DNA from: Piscirickettsiaceae bacterium
Lineage (GTDB): Bacteria > Pseudomonadota > Gammaproteobacteria > Nitrosococcales > Methylophagaceae
DNA length: 64,000 bases
Direction of reading: 5' to 3'
Assembly: GCA_013215805.1 (NCBI GenBank)
Contig: JABSQM010000014.1
Coordinates: forward strand, 124,001-188,000
Shown: positions 1,410-44,102 of the stretch, in pieces
Position numbering within the stretch: the stretch's first letter is position 1
Layout: each line of letters begins with the position of its first letter
Program-made: the position numbers and the translations under genes
Notes under the pieces: generated by a model
Databases searched by the model: none
Seen by the model: the letters and a program-made list of their open reading frames with translations, nothing else
Told to the model about the DNA's origin: nothing

Positions 1410-2108
1410 TTGGTAAAGTATCGCAATACATTTATGTTAAAATTGTATTTTTACAACTTGGAAAATATAAATCGCCACAGTCATCTACAGTGGAAGGGAA
1501 CCATAATCAAGAATTTACAAAAAAATACAGTTAGTTTTAGTTTGCGTGAGGCCGCCATAATTTTATGTTTGGCATTGGCAGGCTATCTATTACTATCATT
1601 ATGTTCATACCAACCTATAGATCCAGGCTGGTCTACAACCGGCATGGATAATCTAATTACCAATCGTGGAGGCATCGTTGGAGCTTGGTTATCTGATATT
1701 TTATTATATGGATTTGGTTTTTCTGCTTATTTTTCTCCATTAATATTAGCTTTTGGTGGTTGGTTGCTTTTTAGTTGGGAAAGAATATCTAACATTAAGG
1801 GAAAATTATATTTTTGGATATTACAAATAATCGGTTTAGTTATAACTTTGTCCTCTCTTAGTGGGTTATCAACCTTGAATCTAAATGATGACCTATTACC
1901 ATTTGGAGCTGGTGGAGCGTTGGGCGAAGCAGTGGGACACGGCTTTGAAAGCATATTTGGTTCCGCCGGAACAACGCTATTGTTGCTAGCTGTATTGTTA
2001 ACTGGTATTACACTGCTTACCGGGATTTCATGGCTAACTATTATAGCCTATCCAAGTGGCATAGCACTAATATCAATATTTCATTTTTTTCAACTTAATA
2101 TCAGTTAA
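1410..2108 (+). CDS. ftsK: FtsK N-terminal membrane domain (gene truncated by decay)
   Basis: The open frame covers only the membrane-anchoring part of the cell-division DNA translocase FtsK. Hydrophobic segments lie near residues 48-67, 97-123, 133-153 and 188-227, matching the four-helix FtsK_4TM domain. The periplasmic stretch PIDPGWS after the first helix is typical of the family. The frame ends soon after the last helix; the linker and motor follow as a fossil to about 3480. The start is unclear: TTG at 1410 or ATG at 1434 are possible, while a good ribosome site (GGAAGGGA) precedes an ATA at 1503. In E. coli the N-terminal domain alone is the essential part, so this piece could still act in division; that is inference. 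Confidence 0.72.
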   Translation: MVKYRNTFMLKLYFYNLENINRHSHLQWKGTIIKNLQKNTVSFSLREAAIILCLALAGYLLLSLCSYQPIDPGWSTTGMDNLITNRGGIVGAWLSDILLYGFGFSAYFSPLILAFGGWLLFSWERISNIKGKLYFWILQIIGLVITLSSLSGLSTLNLNDDLLPFGAGGALGEAVGHGFESIFGSAGTTLLLLAVLLTGITLLTGISWLTIIAYPSGIALISIFHFFQLNIS

Positions 2109-3480
2109 AAGATCTGAAACTAATGCACCTTCTAGTCATCTCTATAAACTGTATAAGCAAATTCTCAATAAGCAAGAAAAATGATATTAAAAAAGACAGG
2201 AAAATAATATTTGAACCCATTCTCCAAGCATCATCTCCGAGCAAGATAAAAATAACACAGCAAATCCCCATACTCTAAACATCGGATGGCACAAATATAC
2301 CAACTTTATCCTTACTCGACATTCCAAAGGACAACATGAGTGGCTATAATAATCATTTCTTGAATGACTTATCTCGACAAATTGAGATGAAGATAAGGGA
2401 CTCCGAAGTTAAAGTACAGGTAATCAATATTCAACAAGGACCGATTAATTACAAGATTTGAGTTACAACCTGATGCGGGGGGGGTGAAAATTAGTCACAT
2501 TAGTAGCCTAGCTAAGAATCTAGCTCTATCTCTATCAGTTAGTAGTGTGCGTATTATTGAGGTTATTCCAGGAAAGCCTGTGGTGAGGCTTACAACATCT
2601 AATAAAAACCGCAAAATAGTACGCTTGCGTGAAATGTTTGGTTGCCTTGACTACAAAAAATTAGTAAACACCGTTAGTGATAGCCCTAGGAAAAAAGATT
2701 GTAGGTTGCACAGCAGTAGCAAATTTATAAAAAATACCTCATCTATTAATAGCTGATACAACTGATTAAGGTAAATCTATTGCCGTTGATGCCATAATTG
2801 TTAAGTTTACTTTATAAAGATACAACTGATGAGGCAAGCATAATCATGCTAGATCTAAAAATGTTGGAATGATCCGTATATCAAGACATCCCTCATTTAT
2901 TGACGCCCATAGTTACAGATATGAAAAGGCGGCCAATGCACTGTGCTGTGTGTGGCTGAAATGGAACGTCGTTACCTACTAATGGCATCCATAGGCATAC
3001 GTAATATTACAAGCTTTAATAAGAAAACAGGAAAGACCATAGATAAGGGCGATCCAACCATAGATATGATAAGTGATATTGTTAACGAAAAGCCAGCTAC
3101 AATTTTCAAGCCATTGCTATTCATTGTTGTAGTCGTTGACAAGCTGGCCAATATGATGATAGTCAGCAGGATGATTGAAAGTTTAATCACACAACTTGCA
3201 AAAAAAGCACTAATTTCTGGGATCAACTTAATTGTATCCACCCAGAGAACATCCGTAATGTAATAACTGGATTACTCAAAGCCAACATACCCACAAGAAT
3301 ATAATTTCAAGTATAATCACGAGTAGATTCTAGTGCAATCCTTGACCAGATAGGAGCAGAACAATTATTAGGGAAGAGGGATATGTGATATTTACCTCCT
3401 AAAACTGGTATACTAGAACAAATACATGGTGTATTTGTCAGTGACTATGAGATACAAAAAGTGGTAAATTTACGAAAACA
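2109..3480 (+). pseudogene. ftsK: FtsK linker and motor domain, decayed
   Basis: Read across frames, the DNA still spells FtsK in order: a SLLDIP segment, an RQIEMKI region, ISSLAKNLALSLSV, VIPGKPVV, RKIVRLREMFG, PHLLIADTTD, ANALCC, VAEMERRYLLMASIG, VVVVDKLANMM and DQIGAEQLLG. Stops and frameshifts interrupt it repeatedly. The Walker A motif (normally GTTGSGKS) now reads DTTD-stop-GKS, and the Walker B DELAD has become DKLAN. No ATP-driven DNA translocase can be made from this. An 8-G run at 2477-2484 lies inside the relic. Separate open pieces at 2484-2756 and 2943-3263 are fragments, not genes. Confidence 0.9.
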
Positions 3481-3768
3481 TAATAAACAAAACTATTTAT
3501 AAAAAGTAGCTCAAAATAAAAATGATTATGACGAACTTGCTATAGGGGGGGTTATAAAAAAGCAAAACCAATAATACAAGCAAGAAATACAGATTATAAC
3601 TTAGAGTCAGATAGCTCAAATTGCGAGGTATCTAAAATCAAATATAATGGCTCTGACGCATATGGTAAAATTAATGTAAAATACTAGTATTATGTATACA
3701 ATAAAAATAATTAGTTCGTTAAAAATCATAGTCAAATAACTTTTGAGTCATTATAAGTATAATGGGAT

Positions 3769-17528: not shown

Positions 17529-17605
17529 TGGCGCGCCTGACAGGAATTGAACCCGTGACCTTCAGTTTCGGAAACTGATGCTCTATCCAACTAAGCTACA
17601 GACGC
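17529..17605 (-). tRNA. tRNA-Arg (anticodon CCG)
   Basis: 77 bases that fold as a standard tRNA on the minus strand. The acceptor stem is GCGTCTG with CAGGCGC (one G-T pair), discriminator G and an encoded CCA end. The D arm is TAGCTTAGTTGGATAGAGC, the anticodon stem is TCAGT/ACTGA with loop TTCCGAA giving CCG, and the T arm contains GGTTCAATTCC. It reads CGG codons. It stands alone, far from any gene on the same strand. Confidence 0.96.
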
Positions 17606-27285: not shown

Positions 27286-27936
27286 ATGAAGAATGTCTAT
27301 GCTCACTCTACAATTAATAAAAAGCAAAAGTTCTTGCCAAACCCTCAATAATCGAAGGTTGTGATACAGCTACGGGTAAATGTCGCAGTACAAACGACCT
27401 ACAGAAAGATATAATCATTTTATGTACAAGATTCATAGAAAAGGTCAAGTACAATATTATTGATATATTTAATTAAAGTAGCGTCGTTTTGGATAATTTA
27501 TTACAATACAAATTCAGTCCATTACTACATGATGCTACTCGACTTGCATTAGACTCAACCAAAGGCCTTGCCGAATTATTTAATGTAGATAATGATACAG
27601 GTCCTAGAAATAATGAGGACGTAGGTTAAATATTAAGTATCCAGAATGCAAGCGCTGGCACCTATATGATTTCACTCTGCTGGACCCCAAGATTTTGGGA
27701 TACATGGTCTCCCTATTGGGGGCATTACTATATTAGAAGCTTAGGTACTGGTAATGCCCCATACATAGTAAATACAATTCACAATTATTAAAACCTATTA
27801 AAGGTAGAAAAACATTAGGTGAGGCTCTGTGCCAAATAAGTACCCCCATGTTCGTAATACCTATCTGCAACACTATAAAATCTAGTTTATGATAGTAATA
27901 TTACAAAGAAAGACATTGACATATTTTTTAAATAAG
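27286..27936 (+). pseudogene. mlaA: MlaA (VacJ) lipoprotein, decayed
   Basis: Read across frames, this span keeps the order of VacJ/MlaA: a lipobox-like IEGC near 27350, ERYNHFMYKIH near 27406 (family: FNRAMYKFN), DNLLQYKFSPLLHDATR, LALDSTKGLAELFNV, GPRNNEDVG (family: PRHNEDFGQ), NLLKVEKTLGEAL and KYPHVRNTYLQHY followed by NLVYDSN. Stops and frameshifts separate these pieces, so no functional protein can be made. MlaA is the outer-membrane component that removes phospholipids from the outer leaflet. Its loss agrees with the mlaC fossil at 4816. Confidence 0.82.
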
Positions 27937-40452: not shown

Positions 40453-40665
40453 TGATTCAGATATAATAGGTAGTTATTATTAGTATGCCCTCTAAATTTA
40501 AATTCATAAACACCACGATTTCATCGCCACTCTAACGCCATGAAGCACAAAAAACGTGCCGGCAATAAAATTGCATCATCATAACCATCGAGATAAACAT
40601 AGGTATTAAAAATACTTCATAATTTTTAATGAATATATTACCTAACCTTAATATTTAACTTTATC
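40453..40665 (-). pseudogene. cvfB: First S1 domain of cvfB, frameshifted
   Basis: On the minus strand, two overlapping frames still spell the lost N-terminus: YVYLDGYDDAILLPARF, then after a frame change GDEIVVFMNLNLEGILIITT, followed by a TGA and another shift before the open frame at 40452. These match the CvfB pattern of YLDGG, ILLPKR, GDELEVF and LIATT. A reading near 40650 may be the original start. At least two frameshifts and one stop separate it from the remaining gene. Confidence 0.75.
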
Positions 40666-40680
40666 GCTATATTTTAAACT

Positions 40681-42371
40681 AGTTATGTTACTGGAGATGG
40701 AAAGTAAAAATTCTTACACGATATCATTTATCAGTTTTCACGCTTAGACAAAAAGCTGCACTTAATGTACTGAATAAGCTTTACACAGTATAATCATTTC
40801 TCATATATGCAAATATTATTATATCGTAAAATAATTCTTAGCACCTAGCTATTATTCCAATAATATATAAAAGTTGAAATATTATTGTAAGAATTAAACC
40901 AAATTTAGATGATTTTATAAAAACATGCGAGTGGACCACTTTTATACTTAGGCTGAAACATATCTCTAAAATTATGATACCGCTTCCTTAATGATACAAA
41001 GTTCCATATAATTAATAATATTCGTCATAGGGGCTGCAAGTTTATGATGTCCGTAGTTTACTTGTTTAAATCTCAAGATTTTCAAAAATACTCTGTTATG
41101 AAATTATCCAAGCGATTTTTAAGTCAACTCATACTTAATTCTAAGCCATGATCTTCGTCACTGTCTAATATAGACATAATTAACTTGTGTGGTGACGAAG
41201 TCGAGCTGAATATTAGAATGCCTCTTATCTTGTTAGTATATTATCTACGTATTTAAATCCAGAACTCACATAGTTAGTGCCTAGCCCAACTTATCAACAA
41301 TTTAAAATACACTACATTGTTAGTCTATAGGACTATCATATTTGCCAAATAAGACGATACCAATCGTTTTGACAAAAAACTATATTTACAACAACCAACT
41401 ATCTAATTTTTCTAAGTTAAATGAAAATTAAGTCCATTTATACTAATGACATATCCTCCTAAAGGAAATAATATTTTTTTAGCTCTGTCAGTATTTGGCA
41501 CTTGCCATATGTTTAATCTATTTCGAGAGGATCATATAGCTTCATCATAACTACACAACGTGAGCTTTATGCATCAATAATTTTAGCTTACACCTATAAT
41601 AAAATTGGATTGAAGACATGAATGAGTAATGACATACTGGATGGGCACGGTATCCAGGATTCTTTAAGTTCAACGTTGCTCACTTCCATAAGAAATAAGG
41701 ATGACACTTTATTCAACAGCTTTCAATCATTCTGAAAATACTTTACTTGCTCCCTCAATACTTGAAACACGAATTGATCAAGAGCAAGAGCAGTGGGTTT
41801 GGGTGAAATATCTACTACTTATATCGACATTACCCAAATAAACACACATTGCGCGACAGTCTACCTCTCCTGCTTAGGCTACATATTTATGTTGATGTCT
41901 ATAGATCGCAGCATCTCAATATATTCAAGCTTAAATTTAGATGTAATATCTCTTGGTATAATAAACCTGACTAGTTAAATCAATAATGACTGTAACTAAA
42001 CCTCGAAGCTAAAACCTACCGTTACACCCCATAATTTTTCAAATATTTGAATAATGATCTATACATTGCAGATGGTACTTATCTCACATTTTTTATTTAT
42101 CGGAAGATAACATTAAGAGTAATATATTCATCGAATATCATTCAAGAATTATCATATTCGTACTAAAACATTATATTTAATAAATTACGGCATGCATACC
42201 TATATTCAAATTGTTATTACTTTTTGTGAAAATTGAAAATTAACATCATTAACAATAAATAATATTTCAACATAATAATACAATGGTTATTATTCAATAA
42301 TATAAATTTATGAGAAATCACACTAATATAAAAGGTCTGCATCAATGTTTAAGACCACTAATTCCATAATA
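40681..42371. other. 1.7 kb decayed spacer
   Basis: No genuine gene. A 61-codon open frame at 41793-41978 has no recognisable similarity or ribosome site. No RNA, repeat or terminator was found. Confidence 0.4.
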
Positions 42372-42832
42372 TTAACGTCGAGTACGAAAAAATTGACGCA
42401 ATAGATCTTGACTTTTCTTTGCTAAAATACCGCTATTATGTAAAATATAATGATTAGATCTATAGTTATTTAAAATATCAAAGATACCACTACCTACAGA
42501 CTTAATTCTGAATTGAGCAGTGGCAAACACGACACGTTTAATCCGCGCATGAACCAAAGCGCCAGCACACATCAAGCATGGCTCCAGGGTAACATATAAA
42601 GTTGTACCTGGAAGTCTATAGTTTCCCTCTCTTACACAGGCAGCACGTAAAGCTGTTAATTCTGCATGGGCGGTAGGATCATTGCTAATAATCGGTCTAT
42701 TCCAGCCTTCTCCTAATAACTTATCAAATAAACAATCACTGCCCCCACTGGAACTTCGCCATGTAATTTAGCCCGTTTTGCTAAATCTAAAGCATGAGAC
42801 ATCCAGCGCATATCATTAATTTTAGAGGACAT
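42372..42832 (-). pseudogene. tadA: tRNA adenosine deaminase TadA with a single frameshift
   Basis: TadA converts A34 to inosine in tRNA-Arg(ACG), allowing CGU/CGC/CGA to be read. From the ATG at 42832 the frame reads RWMSHALDLAKRAKLHGE and VPVGAVIV, then stops. One base missing near 42724-42735 would restore KLLGEGWNRP, AHAEL (catalytic Glu, zinc His), GNYRLPGTTLYVTLEP and the zinc motif EPCLMC, then GALVHARI to the normal end at RTRR. The span is 461 bases, one short of a multiple of three. All catalytic residues are otherwise intact. The start overlaps waaA by 11 bases. It is either a very recent lesion, a programmed or tolerated shift, or a sequencing error. Confidence 0.88.
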
Positions 42833-44102
42833 GAAGTTTGATTAGATTAATCAGTCGTATGCCTGCTCCTTGACTGTTAACAATTAGCCTGAGGCTAGTT
42901 CTACCCATTGCAGCGCGTTTGGAAGGATTGTGCAATAAATCAATAACCGTAGTCGCCAAACCATGAATATCGATAACCTCGACAGCCGCTTCTGCCTGTA
43001 TGAATTGCCGAGTAATTTCATTAAAGTTAAAGTAATACGGTCCTGTGATAATAGCTCGTCCAAGTGCGGCAGGCTCTAATAAATTATGGCCACCATGAGG
43101 AAATAAACTACCGCCAACAAAAGCGATGTCACTGGTTGCATAGAACAGTGGCAATTCGCCCATAGAATCAACTACCAAGACGTTAATGTCATTCATACAA
43201 TACTGGTGTTCACTACGGCGCAACATTTTAAATCCCATACGTTTGCTTAATGCAGCAACACGGTCGAAACGTTCTGGATTTCTAGGAGCTATAATTAAAA
43301 GTAAATCAGGATATTTTATCCTAATTAAGAAAAGTGCATTTAGAATAATTTTTTCTTCACCCTCGTGTGTACTGGCAGCAATGAGAACGGGTCTACTTAT
43401 ATCCCACATTGCACTTACCACCTGCTTAGATATTTTCATAATACTGGAGGGCCAATCGATTTCATATTTTAGATTACCAATGGTATGTACCTTCTTTGAA
43501 TCAGCACCTAGCTGCAAAAAATACTGTCGATCTTGTTCACTTTGGGCGGCAATCAAAGTAAGAGATTGAAGTGTTCTATGAGTTAATGTAGAAATACACT
43601 GATACCCCTTAATTGATCGTTCAGATATTCGTGCATTAGCTAAAATAATTTTAATATCATTCTTGGTACAGATAGATATAAGATTCGGCCATATTTCAGT
43701 TTCCATAATAACACCAAACTGAGGATGTATAGCTGCTATAAATCTCTTGATGGCAAAAGGAACATCATAAGGTAGATAACTATGCCTAACTACATCAGAA
43801 AATAATAATTTTACCCGTTCACTGCCTGTTGGTGTCATGGTTGTCATTATAAGTTGATACTTAGGAAATTCATTTTGCAATAATTTTATTAGAGGTCTAC
43901 TGGCCTCCACCTCACCAACTGATACCGCATGAATCCAAATGACTGATTTATCAAAATTTAATACTGGTACATATCCAAAACGTTCATGCAAACGTTTAAA
44001 ATAGGCTGGTGAACGTAATCCCTGCCAAATAAGGCGTAGCAATATAATTGGTAATGCCAATGTAAAAAGTAAAGTATAGAAAAAAATCAAGATTAGACTC
44101 AT
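42822..44102 (-). CDS. waaA: 3-deoxy-D-manno-octulosonic acid transferase
   Basis: WaaA (KdtA) adds KDO from CMP-KDO to lipid A precursors on the inner membrane. The 426-residue GT-B glycosyltransferase has an N-terminal membrane anchor (about 3-23), the catalytic-base glutamate at 64 in HAVSVGEVEAS, and PHGGHNLLEPA in the C-terminal nucleotide-binding half. Together with kdsD and kdsC it keeps KDO incorporation. The gene is convergent with nothing and is divergent from the acyltransferase gene at 44170. Confidence 0.96.
   Translation of the reverse strand: MSLILIFFYTLLFTLALPIILLRLIWQGLRSPAYFKRLHERFGYVPVLNFDKSVIWIHAVSVGEVEASRPLIKLLQNEFPKYQLIMTTMTPTGSERVKLLFSDVVRHSYLPYDVPFAIKRFIAAIHPQFGVIMETEIWPNLISICTKNDIKIILANARISERSIKGYQCISTLTHRTLQSLTLIAAQSEQDRQYFLQLGADSKKVHTIGNLKYEIDWPSSIMKISKQVVSAMWDISRPVLIAASTHEGEEKIILNALFLIRIKYPDLLLIIAPRNPERFDRVAALSKRMGFKMLRRSEHQYCMNDINVLVVDSMGELPLFYATSDIAFVGGSLFPHGGHNLLEPAALGRAIITGPYYFNFNEITRQFIQAEAAVEVIDIHGLATTVIDLLHNPSKRAAMGRTSLRLIVNSQGAGIRLINLIKLHVL

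Follow-up and report, generated by a model that had tools for sequence, protein, structure and literature searches.

Probable recent inactivation of tadA by a single-base frameshift in a gammaproteobacterium with a shrinking genome

The window analyzed here, a stretch of 64,000 nucleotides, carries on its minus strand (42372-42832) a tadA gene whose reading frame is broken, in the sequence as given, by a single-base frameshift. Has this gammaproteobacterium lost the enzyme, does it bypass the break or replace the activity from another source, or has the assembled sequence dropped a base? The first-pass annotation of the window had left three options (a very young lesion, a tolerated or programmed shift, and a sequencing error). 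The product of tadA enables a single arginine tRNA to decode three codons. tadA is held to be among the few tRNA-modification genes kept by tiny gammaproteobacterial symbionts (PMC11481867, PMC5013485); 34 of 34 genomes of enterobacterial endosymbionts were reported to retain it (PMC11481867), as was the smallest Serratia symbiotica (PMC5013485). An exact-phrase literature search of titles and abstracts returned nothing on loss of tadA in bacteria.

The broken frame and the altered tRNA-contact loop

The features of the locus are as follows, in the direction of transcription.

42822-44102, minus strand: waaA (kdtA), intact, overlapping the start of tadA by 11 bases
42713-42832, minus strand: upstream part of tadA, from the ATG to a premature TAG, 39 aa, containing EVPVGAVIV and matching PF00383 at positions 3-31
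about 42722-42731, minus strand: zone of frame change, after VPVGAVIV
42372-42767, minus strand: downstream part of tadA, an open frame of 131 aa (42767 to 42375) plus stop, matching PF14437 at positions 34-142 (E 1.4e-20)
42660-42668, minus strand: HAE catalytic motif, intact, in the downstream frame
42567-42581, minus strand: PCLMC zinc motif (PCxxC), intact, in the downstream frame (coordinates of both motifs counted from its translation)
42498-42515, minus strand: QFRIKS replacing the EPKTGA of relatives in the tRNA-contact loop, as seen in alignments, with one codon inserted just past the loop

The frame opening at the ATG at 42832 reads MSSKINDMRWMSHALDLAKRAKLHGEVPVGAVIV and meets a TAG at codon 40 (42713-42715), in agreement with the stop after VPVGAVIV described earlier. 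When the TadA of the relative G001 was compared with the window by tblastn, its pieces stopped at 42731 and restarted at 42722, which fits the initial placement of the shift near 42724-42735. Between these two positions the gene loses the single frame that would carry it from the EVPVGA strand through to its C-terminus; the downstream frame contains no second stop and no second frame break. The identity of the gene is far beyond chance, given the match of PF14437 in the downstream piece and of PF00383 in both, and the HAE and PCxxC motifs of the zinc-dependent deaminases are present, so that the catalytic and zinc residues beyond the break are indeed all intact. waaA adjoins tadA also in four relatives (G001, G002, G004, and G019).

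The absence of a long homopolymer at the site, as first described, held for the lesion itself, where there is no run of four or more bases, but a run of five C lies nearby at 42742-42746. A slip in this run was ruled out as the cause of the break, because the conserved AVIV codons that follow it are still read in the upstream frame. An internal start yielding a shorter enzyme was likewise rejected: the sole ORF of at least 40 aa in the downstream frame that begins with ATG, GTG, or TTG encodes 67 aa (42372-42575) and begins at 42575, past the HAE motif.

The gene had also been called otherwise perfect, and this description did not survive alignment. Besides the inserted codon, four near-invariant columns are changed, all of them in one loop (P, K, G, and A of EPKTGA). 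This loop, E/D-P-K-T-G-A, is nearly fixed, with G and A present in 29 of 29 aligned relatives and P and K in all but one of them (29 of the 31 relative loci entered the alignment, L012 and L025 being left out by the motif filter). In an alignment to E. coli TadA (1z3a), the Q of the window stands opposite the loop Asp and the R opposite the Lys; the acidic-x-K-x-G-A loop that contacts U33 and the C32-A38 pair is thus absent from the window tadA, which has QFRIKS. In S. aureus TadA, Asp104 is described as bonding the U33 ribose and Lys106 as touching the C32-A38 pair, and Mycoplasma capricolum, whose tRNA is partly unedited, as having Ser instead of that Asp (PMC3711424). With its anticodon-holding loop changed in this way, the window enzyme may have been weakened before its frame broke.

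Relaxed selection across the whole of tadA was considered and was not seen overall. Of 54 near-invariant columns the gene misses 4 (one more falls in the frame-break gap and was not counted), compared with 14 of 94 for the intact EngB and 10 of 106 for the intact PyrE; as both of these miss more than tadA does, the whole lineage appears to evolve fast. Identity to G001 was 66% in each piece of tadA versus 68-82% for nine intact genes.

Other deaminase genes, arginine tRNAs, and codon usage

The first-pass annotation had proposed searching the genome for a second tadA. This search was run on the organism's own assembly (27 contigs totaling 1,149,260 bases, with a completeness rating of 100% and a contamination of 0.04) and returned two matches to PF14437, the broken tadA and a second gene. 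The latter was ruled out as a second tadA, being RibD, adjoining a riboflavin-synthase-like gene, and the rest of the 1.15-Mb assembly yielded no intact tadA. The assembly is not complete, because 16S rRNA, tRNA-Ala(UGC), and tRNA-Ile(GAU) were not found in it, the 16S search itself having recovered 16S in just 9 of 14 control genomes. The tadA locus lies far from the ends of its 358,727-base contig.

All 37 relatives searched gave a stop-free TadA match of at least 92 bits, which reached the end of the profile in 36, and in none was the gene split. A TadA-type match at E 1e-15 or better was obtained in 361 of 377 gammaproteobacterial genomes with a completeness of at least 95%, the window's own broken copy counted. 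The 16 genomes lacking such a match consist of 15 drafts in 60-510 contigs and one genome, G164, in a single contig.

Two arginine tRNAs bear directly on the decoding of CGN codons.

17529-17605, minus strand: tRNA-Arg(CCG), intact, reading CGG, found by tRNA search
G000:C23:136178-136253, outside the window (L053, 1498-1573): tRNA-Arg(ACG), retained

The organism's arginine tRNAs have the anticodons ACG, CCG, and TCT, and tRNA-Arg(TCG) was not found among its tRNAs (31 matches, of which 30 were retrieved as loci of their own and one was read within L053 and L061). The partner tRNA of TadA, tRNA-Arg(ACG), retains the UACG anticodon loop. It is one D-loop base short when compared to 29 of 29 aligned relatives, and carries A for G at T-loop position 57. 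In the congener G002, which has an intact tadA, the 90-contig assembly showed nothing closely matching tRNA-Arg(ACG), probably because of an assembly gap. A general loss of wobble enzymes was ruled out by the intact tilS.

The earlier remark that intact genes nearby use CGT and CGC was borne out by a count in 38 intact genes of the window, which use CGA as well: CGT 211, CGC 94, CGA 98, CGG 18, AGA 133, and AGG 46, so that CGC and CGA account for 192 of 600 arginine codons. Relative to CGT, and scaled to six other codon boxes, the values for the 64-kb window were 0.94 for CGC and 0.49 for CGA. Both lie inside the range of seven TadA-bearing genomes (CGC 0.62-1.31, CGA 0.17-1.33), each sampled over at most 60 kb. 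At 185 shared arginine sites where G001 has CGT, the window has CGC at 40 and CGA at 28. CGC and CGA have not been purged, and codon usage shows no response to a loss of TadA; this indicates that the enzyme was active until very recently, or is active still.

The single-contig genome G164 (280,822 bases) offers a comparison. It gave no TadA-type match, even at E values up to 10, in a search that recovered a clear TadA from G045, a member of its family. Like the window genome, G164 keeps tRNA-Arg(ACG) and tRNA-Arg(CCG); 34 tRNA matches were obtained, of which 30 were fetched and 17 loci scanned, and further arginine tRNAs are possible. In contrast to the window, its loss appears to be long-standing: 37 ORFs in 60 kb contained CGT 179 times, CGC 7 times, and CGA 15 times, and its relative values (CGC 0.35, CGA 0.09) were the lowest of the nine genomes compared, G164 being the one TadA-less genome among them. 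The CGC figure is the more telling of the two, because relative CGA is also low (0.17) in the TadA-bearing G045. Going by this one genome, life with tRNA-Arg(ACG) and without TadA is possible for a gammaproteobacterium, and CGC and CGA then nearly vanish. Since G164 has been purged of these codons and the window has not, the lesion in the window, if real, is too recent for such a purge.

Gene loss and gene breakage around tadA

The span of G001 that is syntenic with the window contains 88 ORFs of at least 90 aa, and 51 of these have left no trace in the window. One, ftsK, is split, and the coverage rule scored a further 33 as lying in one frame. Since these 33 include tadA, the number truly unbroken is 32. 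The last 3 of the 88 consist of one ORF overlapping a tRNA gene and two weak matches. Of the 34 recognizable orthologues, 32 are therefore unbroken, the exceptions being tadA and ftsK. Comparison with G002 agrees, with 52 of 90 ORFs lacking a trace and ftsK split. Two sites of decay are listed below.

1410-3767, plus strand: ftsK, shattered into seven pieces in three frames, a multi-lesion pseudogene separate from tadA
40453-42371, no strand: non-coding stretch of 1.9 kb, where G001, G002, G004, and G019 have an mltF-like gene

A search of the assembly for FtsK returned these fragments alone, which means that a second gene often held to be essential is also broken. In the stretch at 40453-42371, which directly follows the end of tadA, no residue of the mltF-like gene that adjoins tadA in these relatives was traced against G001 and G002. 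Another gene of G001 and G002 survives in the window as a degraded remnant at 27453-27926 (33% identity, frames interrupted), and this remnant looks MlaA-like.

With 32 of 34 orthologues unbroken and 51 of 88 ORFs lost, decay is common in this genome and indel error is rare. Both the scarcity of breaks in genes that should be intact and the frequency of loss favor a real lesion in tadA. The genome is undergoing reduction, and reduction taken by itself suggests a host-associated lifestyle.

Possible explanations for the break

One possible explanation, less likely than a real lesion, is a sequencing or assembly error, whereby the consensus lost one base and the tadA of the organism is normal and working. 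Such an error would agree with a single lesion in a gene otherwise conserved like intact genes, with the unresponsive codon usage, with the retention of tRNA-Arg(ACG) and its UACG loop, and with the near-universality of tadA (361 of 377 genomes, own broken copy included). Indeed, a one-base slip in a working gene would look just as this locus does, except for the altered tRNA-contact loop, which one lost base does not explain. An error would also have to have struck a locus far from the contig ends, with no homopolymer of four or more at the lesion, in a window where 32 of 34 orthologues lie in one frame and the only other break is the seven-piece ftsK.

Two further scenarios would leave the cell with TadA activity. 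In one of them, slippage of the ribosome or of RNA polymerase yields the full-length enzyme; the frames on both sides of the break are open and conserved, and the arginine tRNA and codons still create a demand for TadA. We consider this tolerated or programmed shift highly improbable: no in-frame X-XXY-YYZ heptamer occurs from codon 21 to the stop, there is no run of four or more bases at the site, slippage at the upstream run of five G would replace the conserved AVIV strand, and 37 of 37 relatives have the gene unsplit. The other scenario, also improbable, is that TadA activity comes from elsewhere, through a second tadA on an unassembled stretch or an enzyme of the host or a co-symbiont. 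The draft nature of the assembly, from which 16S rRNA and two tRNAs are missing (with 16S recovered in 9 of 14 controls), leaves room for it, and it would make the loss of the native copy neutral, in keeping with a codon usage that has not changed. Against it stand a genome rated 100% complete with 0.04 contamination, in which ribD alone matches besides tadA, and the fact that a supplying partner is not known.

Of the three options first proposed, the very young lesion is the best supported, by conservation similar to that of neighboring genes, by the lack of a codon response, and by the open decay around the locus. The most probable reading is that the assembled sequence is correct and that a single-base frameshift has recently inactivated tadA in a gammaproteobacterium whose genome is being reduced. 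Its product, if any, would be a stub of 39 residues, because the downstream frame is for the most part without a normal start and lacks the first strand and helix. Without TadA, tRNA-Arg(ACG) would keep adenosine at position 34, no inosine being made there, and extended wobble would let it read CGU and, with lower efficiency, CGC and CGA, with tRNA-Arg(CCG) helping by reading CGG; the enzyme was perhaps already weak, given its loop, before the frame broke. We consider it about an even call that the locus represents the first step in a loss of wobble inosine, in which tadA is dead and tRNA-Arg(ACG), tRNA-Arg(CCG), and the CGU/CGC/CGA vocabulary are still in place. If so, unmodified A34 must read CGU, CGC, and CGA genome-wide, as the codons have not been purged.

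Several observations weigh against inactivation. CGC (0.94) and CGA (0.49) are not depleted, tadA is no more eroded than the intact EngB and PyrE, and its downstream frame is free of further breaks; moreover, the gene is reported as kept in 34 endosymbionts and essential in E. coli (PMC11481867, PMC10454642). In its favor, survivable loss of TadA function is suggested by the B. subtilis yaaJ deletion, by the E. coli D64E mutant in M9, and by G164. According to Soma et al. 2023 (PMC10454642), B. subtilis is viable without yaaJ and its decoding of CGN codons is unimpaired, with +1 frameshifts occurring particularly at CGA. In E. coli TadA D64E, editing of tRNA-Arg2 was described as almost abolished in M9, where no growth defect was seen (PMC13170351). 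According to these two sources, the original statement that TadA is essential in most bacteria is too strong. The window would resemble the B. subtilis deletion in having tRNA-Arg(ACG) without a deaminase and CGN codons fully used, but that case is a laboratory deletion in a Firmicute (PMC10454642); it would resemble D64E in being a gammaproteobacterium with almost no tRNA-Arg2 editing, but D64E is not a broken gene: it carries a point mutation and keeps some activity in rich medium (PMC13170351). E. coli is reported not to tolerate loss of tadA, its difference from B. subtilis not lying in the tRNA alone (PMC10454642), and tadA to remain essential in E. coli given the B. subtilis tRNA (Soma et al., unpublished data, cited in PMC10454642). 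Orthogonal A34 tRNAs in E. coli were described as reading mostly U-ending codons, and C- and G-ending codons too when the first two positions form G-C pairs (PMC11066159). Because of these three cases (yaaJ, D64E, and the orthogonal tRNAs), a slow-growing, symbiont-like bacterium that decodes with A34 is plausible.

If the inactivation is real, the organism would be a natural test of whether a gammaproteobacterium can read CGC and CGA with A34, a question to which B. subtilis and E. coli give different answers. Together with G164, in which CGC and CGA have nearly disappeared and which would stand for a later stage, it would form a before-and-after pair for codon usage following the loss.

In Mollicutes, mutations in tadA have been proposed to precede the changes in tRNA (Yokobori et al. 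2013, PMC3711424). As described there, Mollicutes differ from the window genome, which keeps tRNA-Arg(CCG), has not replaced ACG by UCG, belongs to the Gammaproteobacteria, and has a tadA that is frame-broken, not merely weakened or absent. Mollicute-type decoding (CCG lost, and UCG gained or ACG converted) was not found among its own arginine tRNAs, which are ACG, CCG, and TCT. What the two share is a reduced genome and a TadA altered at the position of S. aureus Asp104 (PMC3711424), where the window has Gln, a change that would have preceded the loss of the frame.
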